A program made the position numbers and the translations under genes. From Pseudomonadota bacterium (lineage in GTDB: Bacteria > Myxococcota_A > UBA796 > GCA-2862545), in assembly GCA_023954855.1 (NCBI GenBank), contig JAGSGY010000056.1, forward strand, positions 1 to 37,714: 37,714 nt of DNA, read 5' to 3'. Positions 22,705 to 27,062 of the stretch are shown one piece after another (the stretch's first letter is position 1; each line of letters opens with the position of its first letter). The notes under the pieces were generated by a model. That model saw nothing but the letters and a program-made list of their open reading frames with translations. It was not told where the DNA came from and searched no databases.

Positions 22705-23235
22705 ATGAACCCCGCACTGCTCCTGATGGGACTTCTGAGCGGCTCTCCCGCCCAAGCATCCGAGACCGGACGACCCGAGCTCGGCCGACACGACGACGCC
22801 GGCGCGATGTTGGCGGTGCCCAAGACTTGGCTCATCGCCACTCAAGCCACGGAAGATGGCGGTGTGGCCGAGGTTCGCGAGAGTCAGAAGCGCCTGAGCC
22901 CGGTCGTGATGATGCAGTGGGGTGCGGCCGCGGGACGCTCCGTCGACCAGGTCGTCGATGAGCGGGTCACCAAGCTCGGTACCGAGATGGCGATCGGCAC
23001 TGCGACCGAGTCCAAGCGCGAGGACTTCGGCGAGGGCGGACGCAGAGCCACACTCGAAGCCGGAATGATGGGTGTGGCCGTGCCGATCATCGTCGCTGCA
23101 CGCATTGTCGACGACCGCTACCTCGTCGCCGTGTTCACCGGCCCGCCGTCCACGCACACCGCGCTCGACGCGCCTGCGATGGTCGAAGAGATGCTCAGCC
23201 GCTCGATCTGGTCGGGGGAGCTTCCCCCGCTGTAG
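22705..23235 (+). CDS. Exported hypothetical protein
   Basis: 176 residues. Residues 1-18 form a Sec signal (hydrophobic core, cut after PAQA). The mature part opens with ...AVPKTWLIATQ and alternates strands and helices (EVRESQKRLSPVVMMQWG; VDQVVDERVTKLGTEM; RYLVAVFTGPP), faintly recalling PsbP/Mog1-like periplasmic proteins, but I do not assign a family. GAGG lies 6 nt before ATG 22705. Its last 41 bp overlap the end of the convergent sensor kinase gene, so the two transcripts are complementary at their 3' ends. Confidence 0.68.
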   Translation: MNPALLLMGLLSGSPAQASETGRPELGRHDDAGAMLAVPKTWLIATQATEDGGVAEVRESQKRLSPVVMMQWGAAAGRSVDQVVDERVTKLGTEMAIGTATESKREDFGEGGRRATLEAGMMGVAVPIIVAARIVDDRYLVAVFTGPPSTHTALDAPAMVEEMLSRSIWSGELPPL

Positions 23236-24463
23236 GCCAGATGAGAGCAATCTCAAGTCCGCCGCCTGGCCGATTCGCGGCCTCGACGCGTGCCTGGTGC
23301 AGCTCGGCCACCTGCTTGACCAGCATGAGCCCAAGACCCAGTCCACCGGTGCTCCGGGCTCGGCTGCCTTCGGCCCGCCAGAAGGCATCGAACAAGTGCG
23401 GTAGCTCGGCTTCATCCACGCCTGGGCCGGCATCGCGGACGGTGAGTCTGTCGGGACGCACGAGCACCTCGATCGGTGCCTCCCCGTAGCGCTTGGCATT
23501 CGAGAGCAAGTTCGCCACCGCACGCAGCATCAGCTCTGGGTCGACCTCGCGGGTCGCCACGCCCTGAATCGACACGTCAGCGACTTGCGCAGTCTGCGCC
23601 GCGCGCTCGACCAGGTCCCGAACATCGGTGGTCGCGAGCTGAAGCGGAGTGTCGCCCACCTGCATGCGCGACAAGGCGAGAAGCTGCGCAATCAGTCCGT
23701 CGAGCTCGAGCAGGTCCCCTTCCATGGCATCGAGTCGGGAGGCTTTGGCGCCACTGTCTCGCAGCAGCTCCAGCTCCAGCCTGAGCCGTGCCAGCGGGGT
23801 GCGCAGCTCATGAGAGACGCCCGCAAGAAGCTGACGCTCGGTGCTCACGAGCTGATCAATACGGTCCGCCATCTGGTTGAAGGCGTGCGCCATCCGGGCG
23901 AGCTCAGGCGGTCCACCGACGGGAAGCCGATGCTCGAGGTCTCCGGCAGCGATGCGCTCCATGCCCTGCTGAGCGGTCAACAGCGGCCGGGTCGCAAACC
24001 GCCCCAGCGCCACCGCCGAGAGCACCATCAGCAGCAAGCCCGCCAGCACCGCGAAGCGGATCTGACGGCCTGGTCGCTCGAGATCGAGGTCGCGACGCAC
24101 GCCGATCCAGCCCACATCCGTCTCGACAATCACGACGTTCCGCGGACCCTTGTGAAACAGCATCTTCCGGCCGTCATGCTCGACCTCGACCGGGGGGCCA
24201 TGCCTCTGACCACGTGGCCGCAAGTGCGCGCGCGGGCCTCCGCGAAGCCTCCACACCTCCAGCCCGAGCTCCTCGCCGAGCTGCCGGGGCGATTCACCCG
24301 CCTCGACCCGGTCGGCGACAAAGCTCACCTCGTCCTGAAACGCGTGAAACACGGATCGGGCGAGCGGATGCAGCACGCCGTGCATGGTCGCGGCCCACAT
24401 CAACGCGGACGCCAGTGCGACGAGCAGCACAATGCCCGCGGCAACGCGTGTCGACAGTCTCAC
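23195..24463 (-). CDS. Sensor histidine kinase, CpxA/EnvZ type
   Basis: 422 residues. Helix 1 (~8-25) and helix 2 (~137-155) flank a periplasmic domain of ~110 residues rich in His/Arg (GPRAHLRPRGQRHGPP). A HAMP domain (~156-208) leads to the H-box GVSHELRTPLARL with His218, then the N-box (LLSNAKRYG) and G-boxes (RDAGPGVDE, GGLGLGLMLVK). It phosphorylates the OmpR-family regulator encoded just upstream. The start is GTG, overlapping the regulator's stop as GTGA. With two Spy-like genes next door, the set resembles CpxPRA. The signal sensed (misfolded protein, metal) is inference. Confidence 0.9.
   Translation of the reverse strand: MRLSTRVAAGIVLLVALASALMWAATMHGVLHPLARSVFHAFQDEVSFVADRVEAGESPRQLGEELGLEVWRLRGGPRAHLRPRGQRHGPPVEVEHDGRKMLFHKGPRNVVIVETDVGWIGVRRDLDLERPGRQIRFAVLAGLLLMVLSAVALGRFATRPLLTAQQGMERIAAGDLEHRLPVGGPPELARMAHAFNQMADRIDQLVSTERQLLAGVSHELRTPLARLRLELELLRDSGAKASRLDAMEGDLLELDGLIAQLLALSRMQVGDTPLQLATTDVRDLVERAAQTAQVADVSIQGVATREVDPELMLRAVANLLSNAKRYGEAPIEVLVRPDRLTVRDAGPGVDEAELPHLFDAFWRAEGSRARSTGGLGLGLMLVKQVAELHQARVEAANRPGGGLEIALIWPTAGEAPPTRSSG
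23213..23229. other. Hairpin inside the convergent gene overlap
   Basis: CGGGGGA-GCT-TCCCCCG gives a 7-bp GC stem with a 3-nt loop inside the shared end of the exported hypothetical and sensor kinase genes. It could slow polymerase in both directions; no T-tract follows. Confidence 0.35.
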
Positions 24464-25146
24464 CGTGGTGCCCGAGGCACGGTGTAGCCCACACCGCGGA
24501 CCGTCTTCACGAAGGTCGGCTCGCGGGGATCATCGCCGAGCTTGCGGCGGATATGGGACACGTGGACGTCCACGGAGCGATCGAAGGACGCGTACTCCTG
24601 ACCTCGGGCCAGCTCCATCAGCCGGTCACGTGGAATCACTCGGCCGGCGTTGGCCACCAGCACTCGCAAGATCTCGAACTCGGTGGTGGTGAGCTCGACG
24701 GGCTCGCCATCGTTCTCGACCACACGCCGGTCCTCGTCGACCATCAGCGGGCCCGCGCGATGCACGACCTCGGAGGCCGCAGCCTGTCCCGACCGGCGCA
24801 ACACCGCCTCGATGCGCGCGACGAGCTCGCGAGGGTTGAAGGGCTTGCCCAGGTAGTCATCGGCCCCGAGCTCGAGGCCGACAATGCGGTCCATGTCGTC
24901 ACCCCGCGCGGTGAGCATGATCACGGGCAGGGTCGAGAACGCCCGAAGCTCACGCAGCACCGCCAGGCCATCCTTGCCCGGCATCATCACGTCGAGCACA
25001 GCCATGTCGAGGCCACCGCCACGCAGCACCTCGAGACCGGCATCGCCGTCCGCAGCGGTGACCACCTCGAAGCCCCGACCACCGAGGTACTCGGCCAGCA
25101 GTTCGCGAATGCGGTCGTCGTCGTCGATCACCAGGATACGGCGCAT
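24460..25146 (-). CDS. OmpR/CpxR-family response regulator
   Basis: 228 residues. Receiver domain 1-115 with acidic pocket DDDD (8-11), phospho-acceptor Asp52 (VLDVMMPGKDG), Thr79 and Lys101. The C-terminal winged helix (~130-224) has the family pattern LTTTEFEILRVLVANAGRV, DRSVDVHVSHIRRKLGDDP and VRGVGYTV. Members of this family bind direct repeats spaced by one helical turn; such repeats occur before both neighbouring Spy-like genes (25745-25762 and 26331-26348). AGGA lies just before ATG 25146. Coupled to the kinase by a 4-nt overlap. Confidence 0.92.
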   Translation of the reverse strand: MRRILVIDDDDRIRELLAEYLGGRGFEVVTAADGDAGLEVLRGGGLDMAVLDVMMPGKDGLAVLRELRAFSTLPVIMLTARGDDMDRIVGLELGADDYLGKPFNPRELVARIEAVLRRSGQAAASEVVHRAGPLMVDEDRRVVENDGEPVELTTTEFEILRVLVANAGRVIPRDRLMELARGQEYASFDRSVDVHVSHIRRKLGDDPREPTFVKTVRGVGYTVPRAPR

Positions 25147-25192: not shown

Positions 25193-25660
25193 CTAGCGGT
25201 GGTGGCGGCCGTGCGGCGGGCCCTTCTCGAGGTGACCTGCCACAAGCGCGCGCTGCTCAGGCGTCAGGGTCTCGGCGAAGTCGGCCATGCCCTGAATGGC
25301 GTCGAGGTGCCGTGCATGCCGCGCCTCGGCCTCGGCAGTCGCCAGCGACACGAGCTTCTCGAAGTCCGGGGCGTCGTTCGACAGCTCGGCTGCCAACGTC
25401 TCGCGCAGGGCCTTGTGCGCCTCGCGCGGATCCTCGTCGCCGAAGACCGAGTCACGCAGACCCTCGAGCTCGGCGACCTGACCTTCATCAAGGTCGAGAT
25501 GGCTCGCAATGCGCTCGATCGGAGGGCCGCGGTGGCCGCGGAAGTGACCGCCAGGGCCCCCGCGCTCGCAGCTTCCGTCCTGTCCATGGGAGCCGGCGAT
25601 GGCCACACCGGCCAAGGCGAGTGGGGCGAGAATCAGAGCGGGGAGAATGAAGCGTTTCAT
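25193..25660 (-). CDS. Spy/CpxP-like periplasmic protein 2
   Basis: 155 residues. Sec signal 1-22 (MKRFILPALILAPLALAGVAIA). The mature protein starts with a His/Gly-rich stretch (GSHGQDGSCERGGPGGHFRGHRG) and is otherwise helical, with LDEGQVAELEGL and a canonical LTxxQ motif (TLTPEQRALV) near the end, followed by a PPHGRHHR tail. LTxxQ proteins such as Spy and CpxP are periplasmic chaperones or stress modulators; the His-rich ends suggest metal binding. ATG 25660 was chosen over 25690 because AGGAGGT lies 6 nt before it and the signal peptide starts there. Preceded by its own Cpx-like box and followed by the regulator gene. Confidence 0.82.
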   Translation of the reverse strand: MKRFILPALILAPLALAGVAIAGSHGQDGSCERGGPGGHFRGHRGPPIERIASHLDLDEGQVAELEGLRDSVFGDEDPREAHKALRETLAAELSNDAPDFEKLVSLATAEAEARHARHLDAIQGMADFAETLTPEQRALVAGHLEKGPPHGRHHR

Positions 25661-25744
25661 GATGGGACCTCCTGTTCGGTACGACATCAATCTAGGGGCG
25701 CCATGCTACGGCATCGTTCGGTGCGGCCTAAGGGGTCCAAGCAA

Positions 25745-25762
25745 GTGTGAAGGACTGTAAAG
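25745..25762 (-). promoter_or_regulatory. Cpx-like response regulator box before Spy-like gene 2
   Basis: Minus strand CTTTACAGTCCTTCACAC; plus strand GTGAA-N5-GTAAA matches the E. coli CpxR consensus GTAAA-N5-GTAAA at 9 of 10 positions. It lies exactly 84 nt before the start codon, as does the sister box at 26331. Confidence 0.7.
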
Positions 25763-25787
25763 GGCGGGCGACATCGGCCACCCGCCC
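25758..25787 (-). terminator. Terminator between the two Spy-like genes
   Basis: Minus strand GGGCGGGTGGC-CGAT-GTCGCCCGCCC (25787-25762), 11 stem positions including two wobble pairs, then TTTA. It lies 9 nt after the stop of Spy-like gene 1. Its T-run is the beginning of the next gene's Cpx-like box. Confidence 0.65.
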
Positions 25788-25796
25788 AGTCTTGGC

Positions 25797-26246
25797 TCAC
25801 TGGTCAAAGCCGCCACGCGGGCCGCGTCCACGTCCCTGACCACCGCGCTCCGAGCGCCGCTCAGCGCGCTGCTCCTGAAGCTCGGCCAGCGTCTCGAGCT
25901 GGTCGTCGGTGAGCGTCTCGGACAGCGCGCTCATGCTCTCCACGGCGGTGTAGGCCGCTGCACGCTGCGCCTCGACCTTGGCATCCACGAGCTTCTTCAG
26001 CTTGCGCACGTCGGGGTCTCCGCTGCCGATTTCATCCTTCATGCCCTCGCGAAACGCCTTCTGGGCCTCCTTGGCCTCGGAGCGGGACTCAGCCATGTCG
26101 TCCTTAAACGACTCGACGAGGGCGGCCTGGTCCGAGTCGAGGTCGAGGGCCTCGATGAGGCGACCTGGGCCACCTTGACCGGCGACGGCGACACCCGCGA
26201 CGGCGGTGGAGAGAACAACGAGAGCGATAGTTGCGAAGCGGGTCAT
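25797..26246 (-). CDS. Spy/CpxP-like periplasmic protein 1
   Basis: 149 residues. Signal peptide 1-22 (MTRFATIALVVLSTAVAGVAVA). The mature part is helical and charged: LDLDSDQAALVESFKDDM, then SEAKEAQKAFREGMKDEI and a near-LTxxQ motif (TLTDDQLETLAEL), ending in an Arg/Gly-rich tail (RGGQGRGRGPRGG). It appears paralogous to the next gene, sharing signal peptide, helix layout, LTxxQ region and leader (AACAGGAGGTC). ATG 26246 is preferred over 26327 because AGGAGGT lies 5 nt upstream and the signal begins there. Probably a stress-induced periplasmic chaperone or regulator of the adjacent kinase. Confidence 0.8.
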   Translation of the reverse strand: MTRFATIALVVLSTAVAGVAVAGQGGPGRLIEALDLDSDQAALVESFKDDMAESRSEAKEAQKAFREGMKDEIGSGDPDVRKLKKLVDAKVEAQRAAAYTAVESMSALSETLTDDQLETLAELQEQRAERRSERGGQGRGRGPRGGFDQ

Positions 26247-26330
26247 GAGTGACCTCCTGTTGGGGTTGCACTCACGTAGACGGGCGCACTGTTGGGCAGC
26301 CGTTGGCGCCGTCCCAAAGAAACTCAACGC

Positions 26331-26348
26331 GTGTGAAGCTTTGTTAAG
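26331..26348 (-). promoter_or_regulatory. Cpx-like response regulator box before Spy-like gene 1
   Basis: Minus strand CTTAACAAAGCTTCACAC; plus strand GTGAA-N5-GTTAA, 8 of 10 against the CpxR consensus. It is identical to the sister box at 14 of 18 positions and sits the same 84 nt before its start codon. Confidence 0.7.
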
Positions 26349-26351
26349 GCG

Positions 26352-27062
26352 TCAGATCGCCAGCGGTAGAAGCGCATCGTAGGCAGGTCGAAGCGCGTCC
26401 ACGATGGGTTGGAGCGCAGCTGGGACCTTCACTTCCTCCACCCGGGCGGGTCCAAAGCCCGTGGAGGCCTCGACGCTTGCGTACCAGTGGGGAGCCCAGA
26501 CGCCATCGCTCGAGCGAGGCCCCGCCGGCCAGCTGAGCATATGGTCCGTGTAGGCGATGCCGAGCCCTTCGCAGAGCGCCTTGAGCACGCGGGACGGGTC
26601 TTCGAGCAGGCGGGCACTGTGCACGACGACCGGCGTCCGTCCTCGCTCCTGAAGCCGGCGCAGCACCCGGAGTTGCTGAAGAAAACCGAGGTCTTCGGGC
26701 CTAGGCTGCTCTCGCACGCGGGCGTAGGAGGCAGTCACCGCCGCCGGGTGGCGAATGAGCAGGCCGACTTCACAGTCATCCAGCCAGCGGAGGTCATCGC
26801 CCTCGGTGAGGTGCTGCGCCATGTGCTTCTCGTACTGAAGCGGCTGTCTCCCCTGCCCTTTGAGGCCAGCGAGCGCCTGCTCGTAGCCGTTAGGTTGGCT
26901 GGCAAGAATGGCGTCTCGCCCGGGGTGCTCCAGACCCGTCCGGGCCAGGTACGCGGCGTACAGCGGTTCATCGACGACCGTGCAGTCGCCGCGGCCTTCG
27001 AAGCTGCGCATCAAGGCCGTCGACAGGTTCCGAGGCCCGCTGATCATCGCAACGCGCTTCAT
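26352..27062 (-). CDS. Sulfotransferase-like P-loop protein
   Basis: 236 residues, cytoplasmic. The N-terminus KRVAMISGPRNLSTALMRSF is the PAPS-binding-like loop of a sulfotransferase-related family (GPRNxST), followed by VVDEPLYAAYL. Later LIRHPAAVTASYARV resembles the second PAPS-binding segment (RDP..V.SY), with His replacing Asp. Sulfo transfer is therefore plausible but unproven. ATG 27062 forms ATGA with the preceding stop; the in-frame ATG at 27122 lies inside the upstream gene and adds a non-conserved stretch. Coupled to the FAD oxidoreductase, suggesting one pathway, substrate unknown. Confidence 0.75.
   Translation of the reverse strand: MKRVAMISGPRNLSTALMRSFEGRGDCTVVDEPLYAAYLARTGLEHPGRDAILASQPNGYEQALAGLKGQGRQPLQYEKHMAQHLTEGDDLRWLDDCEVGLLIRHPAAVTASYARVREQPRPEDLGFLQQLRVLRRLQERGRTPVVVHSARLLEDPSRVLKALCEGLGIAYTDHMLSWPAGPRSSDGVWAPHWYASVEASTGFGPARVEEVKVPAALQPIVDALRPAYDALLPLAI

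Follow-up and report, generated by a model that had tools for sequence, protein, structure and literature searches.

Cpx systems have been described in alpha-, beta- and gamma-Proteobacteria, where cpxP usually lies divergent from cpxRA; the CpxR motif is GTAAA-N5-GTAAA, and in E. coli about 100 promoters are CpxR targets (PMC12802237). The locus analyzed here belongs to a member of the Myxococcota and lies on a stretch of 37,714 nucleotides, which as a whole we call the window. It shares with CpxP-CpxRA an OmpR-family response regulator (RR), a HAMP/HisKA histidine kinase (HK), a periplasmic protein with a predicted Spy/CpxP fold, and a direct-repeat box of 10-bp period in front of a Spy/CpxP-type gene. 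The recognition helices of the two regulators are also similar (FDRSVDVHVSHIRRKL in the window's RR, FDRAIDMHISNLRRKL in CpxR). It differs from CpxP-CpxRA in its host phylum, in the co-directional order spy-RR-HK (as opposed to a divergent cpxP), in the box sequence (CTTcACA-N3-CTTCACA), in a near-exclusive set of targets and in a kinase that lacks the CpxA_peri domain.

Other described systems are alike in part. Spy, an ATP-independent chaperone of the periplasm under BaeSR and CpxRA control, has in common with the proteins of the window the LTXXQ family, two LTxxQ-type motifs and, in the structure model, the helical Spy fold; however, the spy genes of the window belong to the regulator's own operon and are duplicated in the genus. 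RstA/RstB and OmpR/EnvZ have a related recognition helix and account for the top NCBIfam scores (OmpR, 245 bits for the RR; RstB, 168 bits for the kinase), but these scores are below the cut-offs of 331 and 478, a grouping with OmpR is rejected (see below), and the E. coli rst and ompR loci that were read have no linked Spy gene. ZraP and CnrX have the same wider fold, and the product of spy2 matches Pfam Metal_resist; the regulators that partner with ZraP and CnrX are of NtrC type or ECF sigma factors. Among the papers searched, we found none that joins CpxR, Spy and the word stem Myxococc, and the papers naming both CpxP and this stem look unrelated, to judge from their titles and the beginnings of their abstracts.

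Genes and boxes of the locus

The genes and the two boxes are as follows.

25797..26246, minus strand: spy1, encoding a 149-aa exported Spy-like protein with a signal peptide, LDSDQ and LTDDQ motifs and a Pfam LTXXQ match (25.3 bits, cut-off 24.3)
25193..25660, minus strand: spy2, encoding a 155-aa exported Spy-like protein with LDEGQ and LTPEQ motifs, His-rich tails and Pfam Metal_resist and LTXXQ matches above cut-off
24460..25146, minus strand: OmpR-family RR with Response_reg and Trans_reg_C domains and recognition helix FDRSVDVHVSHIRRKL
23195..24463, minus strand: membrane HK with, in order, a TM segment, a periplasmic domain of ~100 aa, a TM segment, HAMP, HisKA and HATPase_c
26331..26348 (read 26348-26331), minus strand: box 1, CTTAACA-AAG-CTTCACAC, full sequence CTTAACAAAGCTTCACAC, a CTTnACA direct repeat with 10-bp period upstream of spy1
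25745..25762 (read 25762-25745), minus strand: box 2, CTTTACA-GTC-CTTCACAC, full sequence CTTTACAGTCCTTCACAC, with the same motif as box 1, upstream of spy2-RR-HK

In these respects the initial annotation was exact: it had given the coordinates of the boxes, their identity at 14 of 18 positions, the 84 nt between each box and its own ATG (at 26246 for box 1 and 25660 for box 2), and the position of the RR and kinase genes directly after them. The RR and HK genes are on the same strand as the boxes, and their reading frames overlap by 4 nt. On the coding strand, both boxes read CTTnACA-N3-CTTCACA, a direct repeat with a period of 10 bp. It had also been stated that the boxes are close to the CpxR consensus, and indeed both the half-site and the recognition helix resemble those of CpxR. 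The pattern GTGAAN5GTWAA matches the window at these two boxes only, even when one mismatch is allowed (mean of 0.44 in shuffled sequence), and the 178 contigs of the genome, 6.1 Mb in total, contain GTGAAN5GTWAAG at no other place. Directly upstream of box 1 is a gene with a sulfotransferase domain (26352-27062; Sulfotransfer_5, 184.5 bits), whose stop codon is separated from the box by 3 bp.

The description of both effectors as Spy/CpxP-like agrees with their membership in the LTXXQ family, as the gathering score of 24.3 bits is passed by both proteins (29.3 and 25.3 bits). The model of Spy2 (pLDDT 75) has a predicted all-helical Spy/CpxP fold. Its first 21 Foldseek matches are Spy, CpxP or a related VirG-like protein, with probabilities of 0.99-1.00 and E-values of 0.02-0.14, none of them under 0.001. 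A PDB search using a profile of Spy1, Spy2 and their relatives also found Spy and CpxP; since this profile also contains proteins encoded at Cpx-like loci in other bacteria, the result is not independent.

It is conceivable that the system responds to metal rather than to misfolded proteins, i.e., that the Spy-like proteins bind or sense metal in the periplasm, similarly to ZraP or CnrX, and pass the metal signal on to the kinase. The Metal_resist match and His-rich tails of Spy2 fit this idea, as do the positions of CnrX and ZraP next after Spy and CpxP in the Spy2 fold list and the Metal_resist match of the Spy-like protein in a paralogous operon on contig C96. However, it is Spy and CpxP that rank first in the fold matches, and Spy1 is not His-rich and has a Pfam match to LTXXQ only. 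Among the genes examined, there is no metal exporter gene beside the operon. Moreover, the RR of the window is OmpR-type, unlike ZraR, which is an NtrC-type sigma-54 activator. We therefore regard a metal-responsive system as unlikely, though well short of negligible.

Relation of the two-component pair to CpxRA

The initial annotation referred to the RR and kinase as a CpxRA-like pair. The resemblance to CpxR and CpxA is real, but membership in these families is doubtful. A stronger version of the claim would be that the locus is a true ortholog of CpxRA-CpxP that is present in Myxococcota by descent or transfer. When E. coli CpxR is compared to this genome, its best match is the window's RR (46% identity, 189 bits versus 154 for the next), and forcing these RRs and the CpxR clade together gives a tree that is not rejected (p-AU 0.41), while their grouping with E. 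coli OmpR is rejected (p-AU 0.013). In a fold search with the whole kinase, which is dominated by the catalytic core, CpxA cores at ~30% identity are the best matches after a WalK model.

However, in the opposite direction, the best E. coli match of the window's RR is OmpR, with 201 bits versus 175 for CpxR, and in the free RR tree, the CpxR clade (98/98) excludes the window's RR, although the tree lacks the resolution to place it. The NCBIfam scores are far from the equivalog cut-offs for both CpxR (206.8 bits, cut-off 341) and CpxA (153.5 bits, cut-off 486). The periplasmic sensor domain of the kinase has no Pfam or PDB sequence match; in particular, CpxA_peri (PF16527), for which E. coli CpxA scores 44 bits, is absent from it. 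The co-directional operon also differs from the divergent arrangement of cpxP. In view of these observations, we consider true orthology improbable. Most likely, the circuit works like Cpx, and its proteins resemble CpxR, CpxA and CpxP/Spy without orthology being implied.

Some beta- and gamma-proteobacterial RRs are ~50% identical to the window's RR (L093-L111, L131, L133) and have TTTAC-N5-TTTAC sites beside the RR gene. Several of these loci have a divergent LTXXQ-type gene, which is the classic cpxP/cpxRA layout.

Conservation and distribution of the boxes

Of the 57 other genomes searched, 18 have an ortholog of the RR (at least 64% identity), which makes 19 loci when the window is included. 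A sample of 284 genomes from the phylum yielded 16 orthologs, all of them from the same order. A Spy-like gene is just upstream of the RR gene in 18 of the 19 loci, and in 17 of those 18 it is preceded by a full box; the box of the other locus (L017) is decayed. The one locus that has no Spy-like gene (L005, in genome G013) has no box either. Thus, conservation of the boxes in relatives that keep the genes, on which the initial annotation had staked its proposal, is borne out.

Within the genus, spy1 and spy2 group as sisters (support 95/91), and each has its own box, while the other loci that were read have a single linked spy gene. The earlier claim of two paralogous effectors is therefore correct for this genome, but among the loci read, the tandem duplication is confined to this genus, and a genus-specific duplication is our best reading of the sequences. 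It could be supposed that the twin boxes are merely functionless debris of this recent duplication, as the sister relationship of the genes might suggest. However, the box has been kept across the order where only one spy gene is linked, even though the intergenic sequence around it has diverged. This conservation in relatives refutes the idea, to which we assign almost no probability.

The equal distance of 84 nt from box to ATG had been taken as a meaningful feature. This interpretation does not survive comparison: the distances are 84 and 101 nt in a congener (G001) and range from 82 to 145 nt in other relatives, which rules out the spacing as a constraint. In the aligned sequences, the geometry that is kept is instead the register from the box to CTTYGG and on to a -10-like element. 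The corresponding elements in the window, identified using a column profile over relatives, are as follows.

26314..26319, minus strand: CTTTGG, part of promoter 1, ~30 bp from the start of box 1, a single base off the register of the family
25727..25732, minus strand: CTTAGG (CTTYGG-type) element of promoter 2, exactly at +30 from the box start
25689..25694, minus strand: TAGATT, which occupies positions 69-74 counted from the start of box 2 and is the -10-like hexamer of promoter 2
26275..26280, minus strand: TCTACG of promoter 1, in the same register as the promoter 2 hexamer, a weak -10-like match

In the relatives, these elements are kept at fixed distances from the box start, with CTTYGG at +30, ACA at 57-59 and TAgatt at 69-74; promoter 1 matches the -10-like element only loosely. 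Downstream of the box, agreement in 14 or more of 18 rows is reached by 12 of 78 columns (mean of 0.02 and maximum of 2 in rotated controls), and upstream of it, by 1 of 60 columns. It is important to consider that the columns of the box itself are conserved by construction, because the box was located by its pattern, but the columns outside the box are free of this effect. A standard consensus scan revealed no full sigma-70 promoter.

The motif is nearly exclusive to these operons. In 58 genomes of the order, including this one, the exact pattern CTTnACA-N3-CTTCACA has 21 matches, compared to 1 in a reversed control. All but one of these (20 of 21) are located 565-1264 nt upstream of an RR gene of the same family, on the same strand, and the remaining one is inside a CDS. 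When one mismatch is allowed, 13 of 55 further matches are at RRs of the same family, and the rest are at about background level. Within the genome of the window, up to two mismatches give 31 matches, and the control also gives 31, so a wider regulon in this genome was rejected at this level. A composite of box and CTTYGG with up to one mismatch occurs at 13 places, 12 of which are these operons, and at up to three mismatches the composite yields mostly background. Because weaker sites are indistinguishable from background, the strict motif may underestimate the size of the regulon.

The boxes might be sites of some factor other than the adjacent RR, e.g., an alternative sigma factor or a global regulator, and it fits this possibility that the conserved CTTYGG, ACA and TAgatt elements form no standard sigma-70 promoter. 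Yet the association of the motif with operons that have a same-family RR extends across several RR lineages, the motif is absent where the Spy gene is absent, and tandem half-sites with a 10-bp period fit OmpR-family regulators. We consider the involvement of another factor very unlikely.

Several individual sites deserve mention. The extra composite site at up to one mismatch is in genome G028 (L185:1501-1536, G028:C111), where TTTCACACTCCTTAACA is followed by CTTCGG at +30 and the composite ends ~35 nt before an oxidoreductase-like ORF, a possible extra target. Another possible extra target is in G024 (L186:1501-1590, G024:C53), where CTTCACACTCTTTCACA and then a further TTTCA repeat precede a lipoprotein esterase-like ORF by ~70 nt. 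In G037 (L188:1501-2095, G037:C6), the box CTTCACACTTCTTTACA lies ~90 nt upstream of an unlinked Spy-like gene, which is on a contig other than that of the RR operon and is a candidate trans target. The third exact site in the genome of the window, CTTCACACTACTTCACA, belongs to the paralogous Spy-RR operon on C96 (L035 / L191, G000:C96). The RR of that operon is 52% identical to the window's RR, and its Spy-like protein has an N-terminal membrane-type segment and Metal_resist/LTXXQ matches. RR lineages with ~50% identity (L022-L030, L035, L066, L079) have near-identical half-sites and differing spacers (CAA in one; CTT, CTA or CGA in others), and such spacer differences could insulate paralogous circuits. 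Of the exact sites beyond the order, some are in front of LTxxQ-type ORFs with an RR-like ORF after them (e.g., L173, L174, L177, L178 and L180).

The proposed regulatory circuit

Given the conservation described above, the boxes are very probably operators of the adjacent RR, with a positively autoregulated spy2-RR-HK operon and an additional box-driven spy1 gene. Binding of the RR to the boxes is what we infer from their co-occurrence and from the recognition helix. In the proposed mechanism, the two tandem half-sites of each box, one helical turn apart, would serve as operators for the OmpR-family RR encoded just downstream. The kinase would sense envelope stress and cause phosphorylation of the RR, which would then bind each box as a head-to-tail dimer. 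The bound RR would activate transcription from a promoter with its -10-like hexamer beginning ~50 bp downstream of the box. Through box 2, this would lead to expression of spy2-RR-HK and thus to positive autoregulation, and through box 1, to expression of the additional gene spy1. The Spy-like proteins might act as periplasmic chaperones, as dampers of the kinase in the manner of CpxP, or as both. That the RR activates rather than represses, that the signal is stress, and that Spy exerts feedback are presumed by extension from this scheme. The strong targets in the genome would be the two promoters of the window and the one before the paralogous Spy-RR operon.

Our best reading of the sequences is that the spy-RR-kinase operon is a Cpx-type variant in Myxococcota whose regulon is nearly closed and includes far fewer targets than that of E. 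coli Cpx. A more specific proposal can be put forward only tentatively, and we think it less likely than not: that the operon represents a minimal closed envelope-stress loop across several Myxococcota RR lineages, in which the RR has no strong genomic targets beyond its own spy-RR-HK operon and additional spy genes, and which uses Cpx-type direct repeats independently of proteobacterial CpxRA.

Since the box is combined with a fixed promoter geometry, the specificity of regulator and operator is directly testable. If confirmed, a module with Cpx logic in Myxococcota would extend envelope-stress sensing of the Cpx kind to another phylum. It would also provide a simple natural circuit, with one operon and one type of box, so that regulator, DNA site and chaperone output could be traced together across many lineages.
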